Positions 29,255-57,959 of a DNA stretch of 64,000 nucleotides are shown piece after piece. The position numbers were made by a program, and so were the translations under genes. This DNA is from Longimicrobiales bacterium. Lineage in GTDB: Bacteria > Gemmatimonadota > Gemmatimonadetes > Longimicrobiales > Gaopeijiaceae. Location of the stretch: positions 124,001-188,000 of the forward strand of contig JAQWPM010000021.1 in assembly GCA_029245345.1 (NCBI GenBank), read 5' to 3'. Numbering within the stretch: position 1 is the first letter of the stretch; each line of letters starts with the position of its first letter. The notes beneath the pieces are model-generated. The model was given only the letters and a program-made list of their open reading frames with translations. It was not told the DNA's origin and searched no databases.

Positions 29255-30694
29255 CTACTGACCGCGCGTCCTCCGCAATCCGTACTGGTACGCCTGCCAC
29301 ACGCCAGGCCGCACCGCAACGTACACCATCTCGAAAGGCCTGTCGGCATTCCTCATGGCGAACAGTCCTACGCTCATGTGCTCACCCACGCGCATGATCT
29401 GTCCACAGTCCAGGCGTGACTCGTTGCCTGACTTGTCGTAGCGACGCTCCTCGAACGTGACCGCCTCGTCGTTCCGGAACCACGGCGCTGCGCCGGCATA
29501 GTTGCCCGCGAACACGACACCCGGTCGGAGCGACTCGATGGACACCCGACTCGGGCCCACAAGCGTGTCGCCCTGGGCGGAGATCCGAACCTGAACCGCT
29601 TCCCCTGTAGCGAGACAGACACTGGCCGGTGCGCCATCCGGCAGAGGCGTCCCGACCTCACGCGTGATACGAATCGTGTCAGGCGGCGGTGCGGGCAGCA
29701 TGATGGTGTCTGGCGCCGGGCGTTCCATGAGCCGCGGCCTGGACATCAAGCCCTGATCGCTCTCTGGATTCACAGCGATGGATGCAAGAATGCCGAACTT
29801 CGGCTTCCGGTACTCCGAGAAGTAGCCACCCGTTGGCTCACCATAGTTCACCGCCAAGTAGTGAACCCCAAGCCGGATGCCGCCAGCATCGAGCTGCGCA
29901 CCGATGTTCACGTCGAAGCCGTTGTATTCACCCATCAGCGTGAGAACCGACGAGCCACCGAGAAGCATGTGGATCGCAGAGCCGAAGAACCAACCTTCCG
30001 AATCGGCGAAGTTGTAGAAGGGTAGCGCGTCCCCGTCCTGGAACATGCCGGTGCCGTAACCAAGCGCGAACGTCATGTCGTGCTCGGGCAGGAAGCCCTC
30101 ATCGAAACCGCGAATGTGGGCGCTGGCGACACCGTACAGGGATAACTCAGTGTTCAGGTCCGAGAGTCCAGTGTAGGACTCGCGCACGCGCCTGTCCGCA
30201 AAGCCCAGTCGGTTCGGCTGATACGCAGTACCGTCGCCGAACCCAGGCGCGGTGACATATCGACCACCCACCGCGAACCCAATGCCCTGGTTCGTGGGCT
30301 GCACCAACTGCACACGTCCGAAGAGACCCCAGACGTTACCGCCCGCGGCGGCATCGTTGAGAGATTGGACAGAAAGCCCGAACTCAGCACGGTCGAAGAG
30401 GCCAACAGCCACTGACGCATCCGAGTAAAACTTGTCGTATCCCGCCCCAAGGCCAACGCCGTTTCCGCCGCCGTCGATTTCGAGCGTGCGACCCAGGTCC
30501 ATGAAGAAGCCTGAGTACGTGCCTGTAACCGTCAAATGCGACAGGACACTCGCGACGGGGATGTCTATCAGTCCCGAGCCGTAGCGAAGTGTGCTGGGCG
30601 AGTTGGTCGTCTGGGCCTCGAGTGCCGGTGCGCTGACGAGGGCAGCGAGTCCGAGTCCAGCGAGCCATCCGGTGCGACCCCGTACTGTCTTCAT
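29255..30694 (-). CDS. Secreted, probably outer-membrane beta-barrel protein of unknown function
   Basis: The 479-residue product has a clear signal peptide (RTGWLAGLGLAALVSAPALEA, cleavage after AxA) and a long beta-rich region with Gly/aromatic alternation (YGVASAHIRGFDEGF, FALGYGTGMF, FGSAIHMLLGGSS) ending near residue 310. A Pro-rich hinge (MLPAPPPDTIRI) and a soluble domain with two Cys follow (ASVCLATGEAVQVR, SRLDCGQIMRVG). I chose the ATG at 30694 because AGGAGG lies about ten bases upstream. The barrel is inferred from pattern; no OmpA peptidoglycan-binding domain is seen. Confidence 0.7.
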   Translation of the reverse strand: MKTVRGRTGWLAGLGLAALVSAPALEAQTTNSPSTLRYGSGLIDIPVASVLSHLTVTGTYSGFFMDLGRTLEIDGGGNGVGLGAGYDKFYSDASVAVGLFDRAEFGLSVQSLNDAAAGGNVWGLFGRVQLVQPTNQGIGFAVGGRYVTAPGFGDGTAYQPNRLGFADRRVRESYTGLSDLNTELSLYGVASAHIRGFDEGFLPEHDMTFALGYGTGMFQDGDALPFYNFADSEGWFFGSAIHMLLGGSSVLTLMGEYNGFDVNIGAQLDAGGIRLGVHYLAVNYGEPTGGYFSEYRKPKFGILASIAVNPESDQGLMSRPRLMERPAPDTIMLPAPPPDTIRITREVGTPLPDGAPASVCLATGEAVQVRISAQGDTLVGPSRVSIESLRPGVVFAGNYAGAAPWFRNDEAVTFEERRYDKSGNESRLDCGQIMRVGEHMSVGLFAMRNADRPFEMVYVAVRPGVWQAYQYGLRRTRGQ

Positions 30695-30784
30695 GATGAG
30701 GATGCCTCCTGAGTTGGTTTGGCGCCCGACGGCTCCGGCGCGTTCGGACCCATCGATGGCGTAAATCTCCTTAAAACTAGGGTA

Positions 30785-30802
30785 ATGCGAGAATTGTGCC
30801 AA
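30785..30802 (-). promoter_or_regulatory. Candidate sigma54 (-24/-12) promoter
   Basis: On the minus strand the sequence is TTGGCAC-A-ATTC-TCGCAT. The GG and GC pairs are exactly ten bases apart as in the sigma54 consensus TGGCACG-N4-TTGC; two positions differ. It would start an mRNA about 80 bases before the outer-membrane protein gene. Confidence 0.55.
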
Positions 30803-30804
30803 CA

Positions 30805-30822
30805 GAATAATCAAATGTTTAC
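30805..30822 (-). promoter_or_regulatory. IHF-like site, one of two identical 18-base copies
   Basis: GTAAACATTTGATTATTC on the minus strand. Its complement contains AATCAA-ATGT-TTA, a full match to the IHF consensus WATCAA-N4-TTR. It ends two bases upstream of the sigma54-like promoter. An exact copy occurs at 55206-55223. Confidence 0.5.
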
Positions 30823-30955
30823 AGCATCACGCCCGAGGACCCAAAGGGAGCTAAAGCCTATACCTAGGGAGCGATCTGTGCCTACCCACGAGCCACAGCA
30901 GTGAGGAAGAAATGTCGAATTCCTTCGAAAGTAAGTTTCCCGGCGTCCGGTCCGT

Positions 30956-31198
30956 CTAGTCGCTGAGCTGCGCCTCGAGACGAGCCAAGCGTCGAGACAT
31001 GGAAATCACCCACCCGAGGACAGCCAAGATCACGACCGAATAGGCAATAAAAACGTGCCAATACGGCTTGAGGCTCTGCGCCGCGATCCGTGTGCCTTGC
31101 GGGAGATTAGTCATCTCTTGGGCGCCGAGCGCACCCAGGGCGCCTGCGGCAAGGAGCAGAACGAACACAGATAATGCAGATTGTATCGTCGATTTCAT
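30956..31198 (-). CDS. ccmD: CcmD-like heme exporter small membrane subunit
   Basis: The 80-residue protein has a signal-like N-terminal segment (ALSVFVLLLAAGALGALGAQ) and a second membrane helix (HVFIAYSVVILAVLGWVISM) followed by basic residues, as in CcmD. CcmD binds CcmC and helps release holo-CcmE. The N-terminal hydrophobic stretch is longer than in the shortest CcmD proteins. It starts one base after the ccmC stop and is the last gene of the cluster. Confidence 0.75.
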   Translation of the reverse strand: MKSTIQSALSVFVLLLAAGALGALGAQEMTNLPQGTRIAAQSLKPYWHVFIAYSVVILAVLGWVISMSRRLARLEAQLSD

Positions 31199-31199
31199 A

Positions 31200-31895
31200 T
31201 CACGCTACCGTGGCTTCGCGGGCACGGGACTCAACTTCCCCGCGTACGTTTTCGATGGAATACCGGAAGAGAAAGAGCCCAAAGAACAGAATCTGGAACA
31301 CCGCCACGCTCGCCAGCAGCAGGATCAGCATGTCCCCCGGGAGAGACGGTCCCTCTGGCTTCAGAACCACTGGCTCAGGGTGAAGAGACCGGAACCACAC
31401 CACGCTCAGGTGGATGAATGGAATATCTAGAGCCCCTACAATGGCCACGACCGCCGCGAATCGTTTGCCTTTCTCAGGATTGTCCGTGGCACTGCGCACC
31501 ATGAAGTACCCCAAAAAGATGAACCACAGCAGGAGTGTAAGCGTCAGTCTGGGCTCCCAATTCCAGTAGGTCCCCCAAGCGATTTTCCCCCACAACGGGC
31601 CCGTGATGAGCATGATCGTACCAAAGACCATGCCACCTTCAGCAGCCGAAACGGCCGCTCGGTCCAAACGCTCATCCCGCAACCATAGGTACATGGCGCT
31701 CGTGAGCGCCGCGATCCCGAAAGCCAGGAAGGCGGTCCATGCGGCCGGGACGTGCACATAGAAAATGCGTTGGGCGACACCCTGACGGATCTCGGTCGAG
31801 ACCCAAAAAAACGCAAGCCAGTACACAGCCAGCAGTCCGGTCAGGCCTAGCACCGTCAGCGCCACGCCCCCCTTTCGGAGTCCGTTGCCTGACAT
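31200..31895 (-). CDS. ccmC: Heme exporter protein CcmC
   Basis: CcmC displays heme and loads it on CcmE. The 231-residue protein has six membrane segments and the tryptophan-rich heme-handling motif GPLWGKIAWGTYWNWEPRL, plus flanking histidines (FYVHVPAAW, IPFIHLSVVW). The ATG at 31895 has a strong GGAGG site and overlaps the ccmB stop by one base (TGATG). Confidence 0.95.
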   Translation of the reverse strand: MSGNGLRKGGVALTVLGLTGLLAVYWLAFFWVSTEIRQGVAQRIFYVHVPAAWTAFLAFGIAALTSAMYLWLRDERLDRAAVSAAEGGMVFGTIMLITGPLWGKIAWGTYWNWEPRLTLTLLLWFIFLGYFMVRSATDNPEKGKRFAAVVAIVGALDIPFIHLSVVWFRSLHPEPVVLKPEGPSLPGDMLILLLASVAVFQILFFGLFLFRYSIENVRGEVESRAREATVA

Positions 31896-54029: not shown

Positions 54030-54048
54030 GGGTCCTAGACTAGGACCG
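54030..54048. repeat. Near-perfect palindrome spanning the mrp stop codon
   Basis: CGGTCCTAG-A-CTAGGACCG: nine-base arms around one base, covering the stop codon of mrp. It sits between two convergent genes, so it may act as a weak bidirectional terminator. There is no T-run. Confidence 0.5.
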
Positions 54049-55135
54049 CGAGGCGTTCTTCTACCGCCTTCATCACCGCAATCAATGCCGCGGCTGCACC
54101 AGAGTCCGGTGCCGAGACGACGGTGGGCACACCCTCATCACCTGCCTTGCGCACAGCCGGATCCAGCGGCACTCGTCCCAAGAAGGCGAGCTTCATTTCC
54201 TTCGCCAGGCTCTCACCACCCCCAGAGCCGAAGACGTCGACGATCTCGTCACAATGCGGACACGCCATGCCGCTCATGTTCTCGACGACCCCCAACACGC
54301 GGGTGTTCACTCTCTCGAACATCTTCACACCGCGCCGTACGTCCCCGGTAGAGACTTCCTGCGGAGTAGTCACCATCACAGCGCCGTCGAGATCGATGGT
54401 CTGAACGAGCGACAGCTGCGCGTCACCGGTTCCCGGCGGCATGTCCACAACCATCATATCGAGGTCGCCCCAATCGACTTGCTCGAGAAACTGCTTCAGG
54501 ATGCCTGAAATGAGCGGTCCACGCATGATGGCGGGTTGTTCTTTGTCCAGCAGGAAACCCAGGCTCATCAGCTTCACCCCGTGAGACTCGAGCGGCTCAA
54601 TAAGCTCTTGTCCCTTGTCGCCCGTCACACTGGGGCGTCGCTGCACACCAAACATCAGCGGGATGTTCGGCCCGTAGATATCGGCGTCGAGAAGGCCAAC
54701 GGACCGTCCGGACTGAGCAAACGCTGCGGCGAGGTTTGCTGCTACCATCGACTTCCCTACTCCACCCTTTCCTGAACTCACCGCAATGATCTGGCGAACG
54801 CCGGTCAGGACCCCTGGACGAGGAGTCGGTGCCGGCACGGACCCCGGCTGGAGCCCCCCCTGGCGTCCGCCGCCACCGGAAGGTGTCATCTGCGGCAGCT
54901 GCACGTTCACCTTCACTTCTGAGACGCCCTCGACGCCTTCGGCGGCCGCACGGGCTTGCTTCAAAAGGTCACTTGGGTCGTCTCCCCCTAAAATGAACTG
55001 GAAGCGTACGACACCCGAATCTTCGGCGGTGAGGTTTTGCACCTGACCGCTCGCGACTAGGTCGCGTTCCTTGGTCGGGTGCTTGATCTTGGCCAAAGCG
55101 GCCATCACCGAGCGACGTAACTCGTCAGCAGTCAT
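54035..55135 (-). CDS. Mrp/ApbC iron-sulfur cluster carrier ATPase
   Basis: Mrp/ApbC proteins bind and pass on Fe-S clusters. The 366-residue protein has an N-terminal DUF59/MIP18-like domain, a Walker A of the deviant type SSGKGGVGKSMVAANLA, the switch region LLDADIYGPNIPLMFG and DMPPGTGDAQLSLVQ, and the CxxC motif ACPHCDEIV. The length is typical of the long form. ATG at 55135. It stands alone. Confidence 0.95.
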   Translation of the reverse strand: MTADELRRSVMAALAKIKHPTKERDLVASGQVQNLTAEDSGVVRFQFILGGDDPSDLLKQARAAAEGVEGVSEVKVNVQLPQMTPSGGGGRQGGLQPGSVPAPTPRPGVLTGVRQIIAVSSGKGGVGKSMVAANLAAAFAQSGRSVGLLDADIYGPNIPLMFGVQRRPSVTGDKGQELIEPLESHGVKLMSLGFLLDKEQPAIMRGPLISGILKQFLEQVDWGDLDMMVVDMPPGTGDAQLSLVQTIDLDGAVMVTTPQEVSTGDVRRGVKMFERVNTRVLGVVENMSGMACPHCDEIVDVFGSGGGESLAKEMKLAFLGRVPLDPAVRKAGDEGVPTVVSAPDSGAAAALIAVMKAVEERLAVLV

Positions 55136-55542
55136 TGCTAATTCTCATTAACGTGAACGGCTCAAACACCGCTCAGTGAGCGAGAAGCAGCCATATGCTC
55201 TTCTCGTAAACATTTGATTATTCATCGACCTGACGTCGCTGAGCTCCTACCCGCGAGGACTCCGTAAACACAGACAGATCGCGCCGTCCGCCTGGCCTGC
55301 CGGCGGTCAAAAATGGCGTCAAACCAAGCAAAGTGTACCCTCTACGGGTCTCTGGGGTCAACCGGAATCCCGCGGAAGCTCAGTGGTTCAGATCTACATG
55401 ATCATTGATTTATCGCTCAATCATGCTGATTTTTTTGTCGAATTATCGGAATGGTGATGCGGTTGATGGCAATATCTGGTGCCGACGGCACAAGCATTGC
55501 TAGCAGCGGCAGAATCGGAGCCCACAAACCCCTCATGAACTG
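55136..55542. other. 407-base region between mrp and the BY-kinase gene
   Basis: No gene is seen. It is AT-richer than its surroundings and contains the 18-base IHF-like motif at 55206-55223. An AT-rich stretch around 55400-55460 includes ATTGA and TCAAT arms. Promoters for the flanking divergent genes should lie here. Confidence 0.35.
55206..55223 (+). promoter_or_regulatory. IHF-like site, second identical 18-base copy
   Basis: GTAAACATTTGATTATTC, identical to the copy at 30805-30822 and in the same orientation relative to the gene downstream (BY-kinase here, outer-membrane protein there). No sigma54-like promoter follows this copy. Confidence 0.45.
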
Positions 55543-55891
55543 ATGACAACCGAACCCATCCAAATATCCGCACATCGACCCGGATCCGGATAGCTTTGGC
55601 AGCACCCCACATCTGGCCGATTATTGGTCCGTCGTGGCGCGCCGCCTGGGGCTCGTCATGATCATCTTCACGGTGACCGCTGCATCGTCCATTTGGGCGA
55701 TCTCGCAGCAGGAGACGTTCTACTCCGCCTCGATGGCCCTTCAGGTGAACGACCCCGAAGACCAGCAGGCAGGGCTCGTGAACAGCACTCTAGGCGGAAT
55801 GAACCTCTTCGTCGACCCGATCGTTTCCGAAGTCCAGGTGCTGTCGTCGGGTCCAGTGCTGCAGGCGATTGTGGACTCTTTAAGGGCTTAG
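55543..55891 (+). pseudogene. Broken 5' part of a Wzc/BY-kinase (GumC/Wzz domain) gene
   Basis: Three frame pieces read as one protein. From the ATG at 55543: MTTEPIQISAH. From about 55577 in another frame: DPDSFGSTPHLADYWSVVAR and RLGLVMIIFTVTAASS, a Wzz-type membrane segment, ending at a TAG (55889-55891). The rest continues in a third frame from 55884 (GLRLVRDDYG). Each jump needs one extra base: one in the CCC near 55580 and one in the TTTAAGGG at 55878-55886. Both sites are short runs, so sequencing error and true frameshifts are both possible. A GTG at 55634 opens the middle frame. Confidence 0.7.
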
Positions 55892-55997
55892 ACTCGTACG
55901 CGACGACTACGGAGTCCGGTCCGATCTCGCTCGGAACATCTGGGTCGATTCGGAGGCTCCGGACGGACTCTTCGAGCTTTGGTACGACGCGGAAGGG

Positions 55998-57959
55998 TTG
56001 AATGCTCAGCTCAGGAACTCCGATGGAGAGCTTCTTGTAGAGGCGCCCGTCGGCACCACTCTTGATGCCGGCTTCATGCGTTTCGTGCCGCAACGACTGG
56101 ATGAGGATACCGACCAGCGCCTTTGGGGCCTCCGCATCGAACCCGCTCACTCGGTGGCGGTGGAGATCGGGTTTTCTTCCGAAGCGCGCAGTGAGACAAA
56201 TATCGTGGACATCGGCCTCGTCCATGCTGACCAACACCTCGCGCCGTTGATTCTGAACATGGGCGGCAAAGTCCTGCGGGAACGGGGCGCCGAGTCCGTC
56301 CGCTCCGTGGCTCGCCAAGATCGACGCTTCATTCAGTCTCAGCTCGACAGCGCGGACGCGCAGATGAAAACCTCGCAGGAGGCCATCCGCGTCTTTAAAA
56401 CGACACAGGCGTTCTCGTCGCTAAGTTTAAGGCAGCAGCAGCTCGTCGCTCGCTCCCAAAGGATCTACGACGATATCGAGTTGTTCAGATATCAGCGTCA
56501 GGTGCTCAGCGGGTTGGTGGACATGATCGCCGGCGGCGGAATCGAACAAGCCAACCTTACGGGTACCCTGGCAGAACTGCCGGAGGGTACGAACAACCAG
56601 GTTCACATCGTGATCCAGCGTATCCAGGCGGAGCAGGAAGTATTCCGCGAACTGGTCGAGCAGCAACGACTTTCGAAGGGTCACCCTCAGGTACAGTCCG
56701 TGCAGTCAAGCCTGGTCCAGATGGGAACGCAACTCCAGAGCGCTGCGACTGCCAGCCTCGGAGTCGTGACAAACCAGTTGGCCGGGCTCGAAGCTCAGGA
56801 ACAGGACATCCTGGATGAGCAGGCTCTCCTCCCGGCGTTGGAGGGGCAGCTTTCGGCATTGGAGGCTCAACGGGCGATGGACGCGTCGGCGTACCAGATG
56901 ATTCAACGACAGCTGTACCAGACTCGGATCGCAGAGGCCGCCGCCGCGCCCTACATTGAGATCATTGATCCGGCCACGGCCGCCCACCCTCTCGGGGGCA
57001 GCAGCCGCTTGAACATCCTCTTGGGTGGACTTCTCGGGATCATCTTGGGCGTTGGTGCGGCCTTCTTCCTTGAGTACCTAGATCGGACAGTGCGAACCAG
57101 CTCTGATGTCGAGTCGCTGCTCGGCATCCCGGTGCTCGGGGTGATTCCGCAGCTACATAGGCTCTCAAACGCGACGAGTGACGCGAGTCAATTGGAAGGC
57201 CGCGGGATCCCTCTGATCGTCGCGATGGACCCGCTGGATCCGGCCTCCGAAGCGTATCGCAACCTGCGCATGAACTTGATGTATGTGAGTCCAGATTCAG
57301 ATAAGCGCCCAACCAAGACGGTCCTCTTCTCAAGCCCGGGACCGTCCGAGGGTAAGTCGACCACCGCTGTGAACTTCGCAGTGATGCTCGCCCAACAGGG
57401 ACACAGAGTCCTGCTTATCGACTCCGATCTGCGCCGCCCATCTCTGCACCGAACACTCGACCTCCTGAGGGAACCGGGACTGACAAACTTGCTTATCGGA
57501 GATGCGGAGCCACGAGAAACCGTGCGCCCTAACGTTTTTCCGAATCTAGACTTCTTGCCCTCAGGGGTCTTTCCGCCAAACCCATCCGAACTTCTCAACT
57601 CGAAGGCGATGGTAAGGGTCATCGAGGAGTTCGAAGGGCGTTACGACTTCGTGGTGATCGACTCCCCGCCGCTCCTCGCAGTCACGGACGCCGCGATTCT
57701 CTCGGTGCACACGGACGGGGCAGTAATCGTTCTCCGCTCAGGAGAGACCGAACAACGGGCCGCCCAGCGATCCATCGATCAGCTCCGACGCCTTGGCGTC
57801 CGAATCTTTGGGGCAGTCCTCAACGAGGTCACTGCGGCCAATCCGGACGAGAGTTATTACCTCCAGTACTACGAGACATACACGCCAACAGGAACCGTCC
57901 AGAAGAGCGGTTGGCAGCAGTTGCGTGAGGGTCTGAGCAAGGTGACATTCTTCGGGTGA
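55998..57959 (+). CDS. Polysaccharide-export tyrosine autokinase (Wzc/BY-kinase), 3' part of the split gene
   Basis: The protein is a membrane co-polymerase with a C-terminal kinase that controls exopolysaccharide or capsule chain length. The 653-residue frame has GumC-type coiled coil, a second membrane helix (LNILLGGLLGIILGVGAAFF), Walker A FSSPGPSEGKSTTAVNFA, Walker A' VLLIDSDLRRPSLHR, Walker B YDFVVIDSPPLLAVTDA, and the tyrosine cluster ESYYLQYYETYTPTG near the C-terminus. The true protein starts upstream, in another frame, so this TTG start at 55998 is artificial. The cognate phosphatase is at 23.5-24.3 kb. A clear terminator follows. Confidence 0.88.
   Translation: MNAQLRNSDGELLVEAPVGTTLDAGFMRFVPQRLDEDTDQRLWGLRIEPAHSVAVEIGFSSEARSETNIVDIGLVHADQHLAPLILNMGGKVLRERGAESVRSVARQDRRFIQSQLDSADAQMKTSQEAIRVFKTTQAFSSLSLRQQQLVARSQRIYDDIELFRYQRQVLSGLVDMIAGGGIEQANLTGTLAELPEGTNNQVHIVIQRIQAEQEVFRELVEQQRLSKGHPQVQSVQSSLVQMGTQLQSAATASLGVVTNQLAGLEAQEQDILDEQALLPALEGQLSALEAQRAMDASAYQMIQRQLYQTRIAEAAAAPYIEIIDPATAAHPLGGSSRLNILLGGLLGIILGVGAAFFLEYLDRTVRTSSDVESLLGIPVLGVIPQLHRLSNATSDASQLEGRGIPLIVAMDPLDPASEAYRNLRMNLMYVSPDSDKRPTKTVLFSSPGPSEGKSTTAVNFAVMLAQQGHRVLLIDSDLRRPSLHRTLDLLREPGLTNLLIGDAEPRETVRPNVFPNLDFLPSGVFPPNPSELLNSKAMVRVIEEFEGRYDFVVIDSPPLLAVTDAAILSVHTDGAVIVLRSGETEQRAAQRSIDQLRRLGVRIFGAVLNEVTAANPDESYYLQYYETYTPTGTVQKSGWQQLREGLSKVTFFG

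Follow-up and report, generated by a model that had tools for sequence, protein, structure and literature searches.

We consider it quite likely that the two copies of an 18-base word in the window (the whole analyzed stretch of 64,000 nucleotides, G000:C21:124001-188000) contain the operator of a dimeric regulator of cell-envelope genes, as predicted from the DNA sequence. The word belongs to a 7-2-7 inverted repeat that is conserved in relatives at the gaps between orthologous genes, and its position relative to promoters varies from site to site; these three features together suggest an operator. The features of both loci are listed in Table 1.

Table 1. The two copies of the 18-mer and the surrounding features (window coordinates)
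Feature	Position	Strand	Remarks
Copy A of the 18-mer	55206..55223	+	16-base inverted-repeat core at 55206-55221, GTAAACA-TT-TGATTAT
mrp, NUBPL/ApbC-type P-loop ATPase	54035..55135	-	Pfam PF10609; ATG at 55135
wzc-like polysaccharide tyrosine autokinase gene, frame-broken	55543..57959	+	open pieces 55624-56001 and 55998-57959
Copy B of the 18-mer	30805..30822	-	core at 30807-30822
Sigma-54-type promoter TGGCACAATTCTCGCA	30786..30801	-	3 bp downstream of copy B; conserved before orthologues
Secreted outer-membrane-type protein, 479 aa	29255..30694	-	no Pfam family

Two exact copies of an 18-base word

A scan of both strands of the window found the word GTAAACATTTGATTATTC at these two places, and no further match in the window when up to three mismatches were allowed. 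The coordinates and strands agree with the initial annotation, which had also correctly described the word as AT-rich in GC-rich DNA (four G/C among 18 bases, in a window of 61% GC) and placed both copies in upstream regions. Both copies are intergenic, one before the outer-membrane-type gene and one between mrp and the wzc-like gene. Copy A lies about 70 bp from the start of mrp and about 320 bp from the ATG of the wzc-like gene. The ATG-led frame of the latter stops after 16 codons and the remainder is open in two pieces, a break that may be due to a sequencing error. In many relatives, the wzc-like frame is open over about 800 residues; in G020 there is only a wzc remnant beside mrp.

The 18-mer is the longest dispersed exact repeat of the window. 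The same annotation had called a chance repeat unlikely but possible, and the second half of this statement holds, since exact repeats of at least 18 bases arose in 14/90 Markov-simulated windows (6/30, 6/30, and 2/30 for orders 1, 3, and 5, respectively). The repeat alone is therefore not beyond chance. A shuffle null is unsuited here because the word was picked after the fact. In addition, the whole genome (G000, 3.79 Mb in 30 contigs) contains no third exact copy, only two further matches with three mismatches, both ending in ATTTGATTGGTC, and a straight alignment of copy A with the same-genus genome G001 keeps 5/18 bases. All this would fit a coincidence, with copy B as the AT-rich flank of a sigma-54-type promoter and copy A as a chance match unrelated to it.

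With up to two mismatches, the 18-mer was found in five of 59 genomes, our own included. The match in G001 sits at the orthologue of the outer-membrane-type gene, while that in G007 (one mismatch, L006) lies before a gene without a recognizable role in the envelope, beside a transposase (by eye); the remaining two are in G002 and G044. When the exact word was searched for in the genome_contigs collection (84,980 species), six contigs were returned. Five of them belong to Cellvibrionales, Dysgonamonadaceae, Alteromonas, Marinigracilibium, and Balneolales, with a locus GC content of 35-48%, and are taken as chance matches. The sixth is a Longimicrobiales MAG of 68% GC, in which the 18-mer overlaps the last codon and the stop of a tolB-like gene (by eye) and precedes a pal-like OmpA gene.

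An inverted repeat upstream of orthologous genes

The corresponding gaps of two relatives contain palindromes at nearly the same distance from mrp as copy A (70 bases), namely AGAAACATATGTTTTC at 73 bases in G001 and AGAAACATTTGTTTAC at 66 bases in G008, and for this reason an inverted repeat was proposed. The degenerate element is a 16-base 7-2-7 inverted repeat, GNAAACA-NN-TGTTTNC, of which both focal copies are an asymmetric form with two mismatches from the symmetric consensus. In view of the near-palindromic form of the element, it means little that both copies point the same way toward a surface gene, as the initial annotation had noted. In the 59 genomes, several of them draft assemblies, exact matches to the palindrome number 13, spread over 10 genomes, and matches to its reversed control are absent. 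In a crude view of ORFs, six of the 13 places are covered by some ORF of at least 80 codons; two of these six are in an mrp-wzc gap and a DUF5715 upstream region. Within two mismatches, our own genome shows no enrichment of the palindrome (45 places, against 43 for its reversed control). By the genome-wide count that the initial annotation had proposed, the exact word with its two copies gives the motif little encouragement; its degenerate form, in contrast, is conserved in relatives.

One set of sites precedes the gene for a secreted DUF5715+LysM protein, which has a palindrome with one mismatch in our own genome and an exact one in G024 and G008. Orthologues were matched in 59/59 genomes, and upstream regions were taken from the best 30 loci (L148-L177, own included). 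A palindrome with at most two mismatches is present in 16 of these 30 regions (15/29 without our own genome) where shuffles give about 0.1, and the other 14 have no palindrome within this limit. The reversed control pattern matches 6/30 regions, in all six cases by reading the same element shifted by 5 bases. Among 20 sites with at most three mismatches, C5, G10, T11, T12, and T13 are invariant, in part a selection effect, since the sites were chosen by their match to the palindrome. The sites in G003 and G011 read GGAATCAAATGTTTAC, and have the 14 consecutive bases AATCAAATGTTTAC in common with the focal element.

A weight matrix was built only from the 16 DUF5715 sites; as these were picked via the palindrome, their uniformity is partly by construction. 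With this matrix, the focal copies take the top two ranks among all window positions, at 22.06 against 16.04 for the next distinct site, and none of two million background positions reaches their score. A variant of 14 sites, with our own genome and G001 left out, again places both copies first and second (22.36; next distinct site 15.9), and among 2e7 random positions, 0, 1, and 2 reach this score at a GC content of 61, 50, and 45%, respectively. When G003 and G011 are removed as well, the focal copies still come first in the window (20.89).

The mrp-wzc gaps provide a test set of which no member was used in matrix training. We fetched 30 mrp loci, 10 of them with a wzc-like start within the flank; after one was dropped (L060, from G020, with the wzc remnant and an 18 bp gap), nine gaps (4,460 bp) remained. 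Five of the nine score at least 18, the focal copy included. For the relatives this is 4/8, with about 0.01 expected; four of the nine gaps contain no strong matrix site. A 10-mer discovery on six mrp-wzc spacers picked by eye found its word in 5/6, and shuffles also got five in 4/15 runs, so that this result is suggestive only. The inverted repeat is thus conserved at orthologous upstream places of two kinds, as expected of an operator. The recurrence of palindromes in the gaps of relatives, together with the top ranks that a matrix from a third gene in other genera assigns to both copies, argues against the coincidence described above, which we regard as improbable.

Apart from the element, our own mrp-wzc gap and that of G001 have TACATGATCATTGAT in common (window 55395-55409), nearer wzc, which is possibly another regulatory element.

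We also scanned 136 loci that had been fetched without the motif as query (470 kb, partly overlapping). Matches of at least 18 are confined to the DUF5715, mrp-wzc, and own outer-membrane gene loci, with two exceptions, an own site (L047) and a site in L032. On our own contig (464 kb including the window), seven matches score at least 13, six of them outside crude ORFs that cover 94% of the sequence. The top four are the DUF5715 site, the two focal sites, and a site at a second outer-membrane-type gene, all intergenic.

Neighboring promoter elements, candidate target genes, and a proposed mechanism

Copy B adjoins a sigma-54-type promoter. TGGCACAATTCTCGCA has the form TGGCAC-N5-TCGCA and agrees with TGGCAC-N5-T(T/C)GC, including the GG and GC dinucleotides. 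Among 17 upstream regions of orthologues of the outer-membrane-type gene (L015-L031, with our own among them; L032-L044, as partial matches, were left out), exact TGGCAC-N5-TCGC is present in five (own included), 98 to 130 bases before the start. The expectation is 0.016 and the maximum in 3000 resamples was one; on the antisense strand, the pattern is absent from the same 17 regions. RpoN is encoded in our own genome (PF04552, E 8.8e-63) and in 58 of the 59 genomes searched, own included. Genome-wide, the sigma-54 pattern has fewer matches than its reversed control (12 vs 40 in our own genome; 49 vs 97 summed over 34 genomes), and the assignment therefore rests on the position before orthologues.

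Copy B keeps 16/18 bases in G001 and a related stretch occupies its place in G020, while only four of the 17 upstream regions (own, G001, G020, and G008) reach a matrix score of at least 15. The 18-mer is absent in front of other strict sigma-54-type sites of our own genome; one of these lies before an Hsp20-like gene (by eye) and another before a second outer-membrane-type gene (PF13505, below cut-off). An exact sigma-54-type site before a second outer-membrane-type protein was seen in our own genome (L056, C28:12857) and in G007 (L108, C8:58585), and the N-termini of both proteins are similar by eye.

Two further observations concern the 479-aa protein. Its orthologue in G001 (L022, C14:37729-39151) was matched as two fragments, and the first contains two in-frame TAG codons. 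Many other proteins of the order (e.g., L032-L044) match the 479-aa protein only in roughly the last 150 residues of its C-terminal part (about 160 residues); this part may represent an unnamed domain, since no Pfam family was matched.

At the DUF5715 genes, a conserved CTTGTG box lies 5 bases upstream of the palindrome (14 to 18 of 20 sites per base) and a TTTAC-NN-AT pattern runs over the right edge of the repeat; the two may form an unusual promoter of this lineage. Together with the position of copy B directly upstream of the -24 box, they could also mean that the element is itself a promoter part, i.e., an upstream contact of RNA polymerase or the -10 box of an alternative sigma factor, instead of an operator. 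This is very unlikely in our view, since conservation also includes the left half and the spacing, and the symmetry extends over both arms. Moreover, neither focal copy continues as TTTAC-NN-AT, and a sigma-70-type scan found no site at 30600-31250 and only two weak ones at 55100-55700, neither overlapping copy A.

Seven of the 45 two-mismatch sites of our own genome score above 18: the DUF5715+LysM site, the two focal sites, and four others. One of the four is upstream of mreB (PF06723), at about 71 bp from its longest ORF, and one precedes an outer-membrane-type ORF of 345 residues (no Pfam) by 60 bp. Another precedes an ORF of 118 residues (no Pfam), after which comes a MlaE-like permease (by eye), and the last is in a gap, with an uncertain ORF in it, that separates the genes for an M23 peptidase (PF01551) and a NIF3-like protein (by eye). 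A weaker site (13.4) on our own contig is found 23 bp before a pilM-like gene (by eye). In G013, exact palindromes occur after a tolB-like gene (by eye) and 41 bp before an OmpA+BON gene. Sites with no evident envelope link also exist, i.e., that of L006 and several of the 13 exact places. No regulator gene was found beside the sites inspected in our own genome. The idea of a motif shared upstream of surface genes finds support in the degenerate form, which mostly precedes envelope-related genes in relatives. The initial annotation is supported in this reading, but it included neither the inverted-repeat structure nor the adjoining sigma-54-type promoter nor the frame break in the wzc-like gene.

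We propose that a dimeric DNA-binding regulator recognizes the 7-2-7 consensus and its focal form. Presumably, one and the same protein would bind at all sites and would control a small envelope set in the family, namely the DUF5715+LysM gene, the divergent mrp/wzc pair, genes for outer-membrane-type proteins, and mreB. Where the site abuts the -24 box, as copy B does, the bound protein could hinder or help the polymerase. In the DUF5715 promoter regions, the site comes after the -35-like CTTGTG box and would have the usual place of a repressor site. Both positions suggest repression as the more likely sign of control, with activation as the less likely one. A further-reaching view is that of an undescribed, family-wide envelope regulon under one regulator, which would comprise mreB, the LysM protein, Tol-Pal, capsule export, and outer-membrane proteins, with direct action at one sigma-54 promoter. 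We put this forward tentatively, as a possibility that we hold to be somewhat less than even. The regulator of such a regulon would perhaps be a wall-damage sensor related to the BlaI/CopY repressors or a NarL-type response regulator. If the operator reading is right, it would open a way to study how the envelope is regulated in a bacterial group that has received little attention, with a short target list, a defined operator, and a concrete route to the regulator. It would also illustrate that an exact short repeat in one window can mark a conserved regulatory site, though the exact word occurs only twice in the genome.

Comparison with known regulatory systems

The element could alternatively be the site of a known global system, such as LexA, the CopY/BlaI class, or another catalogued regulator, which we consider unlikely. 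For LexA (SOS), the regions upstream of recA and of both LexA-like genes that passed the cut-off contain no palindrome within two mismatches. One possible pointer to a catalogued regulator comes from G036, where an exact palindrome lies 107 bp before a MarR-like gene (below the Pfam cut-off); this neighborhood may hint at autoregulation and is regarded as a lead. A BlaI-family regulator was sought with a rough motif (not a profile search), which had no match in the 464 kb or the loci.

Among the systems compared, the CopR-CopY site is the nearest published operator. This operator is the 16-base RNYKACANNTGTMRNY, and BlaI and MecI are named among the repressors said to bind its 10-base core (both according to an excerpt of PMC7253601). 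Our element has in common with these sites the 16-base inverted repeat, the ACA-NN-TGT core, and R/Y ends, but differs beside the core, with AA/TT in place of YK/MR, and the focal copies contain TGA for TGT (compared with the same excerpt of PMC7253601). In the conserved sites, too, the core is common to both and the neighboring positions differ, so that RNYKACANNTGTMRNY was rejected as a description of them.

The heptamer letters of NarL differ from those of our element, and the same applies to the site letters and geometry of Cpx, Rcs, and sigma-E. NarL-type sites are similar in geometry, with two 7-base elements inverted around 2 bp, and can abut a promoter (excerpt of PMC7419079). We file the element under neither the CopY nor the NarL class.

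Of the papers found by a full-text literature search with the letters of the palindrome, those read have them in primers (excerpts of PMC5116461 and PMC5590869). No description of the site was found in the literature searched on sigma-54 in Gemmatimonadetes, on Gemmatimonadota regulon motifs, and on envelope response regulators. We judge the operator to be a known kind of element and its envelope regulon to be one with no description found in the literature searched.

Sigma-54 control of the bacterial exterior and of envelope genes is an existing proposal (excerpt of PMC3162934). It is matched by copy B, which adjoins TGGCAC-N5-TCGCA before an outer-membrane-type gene in a genome with rpoN; the difference is that the 18-mer lies outside the -24/-12 boxes and that copy A has no adjoining boxes. 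In having one factor that coordinates wall, outer-membrane, and surface genes, the proposed regulon would resemble the Cpx, Rcs, and sigma-E envelope-stress regulons (excerpt of PMC2731931).
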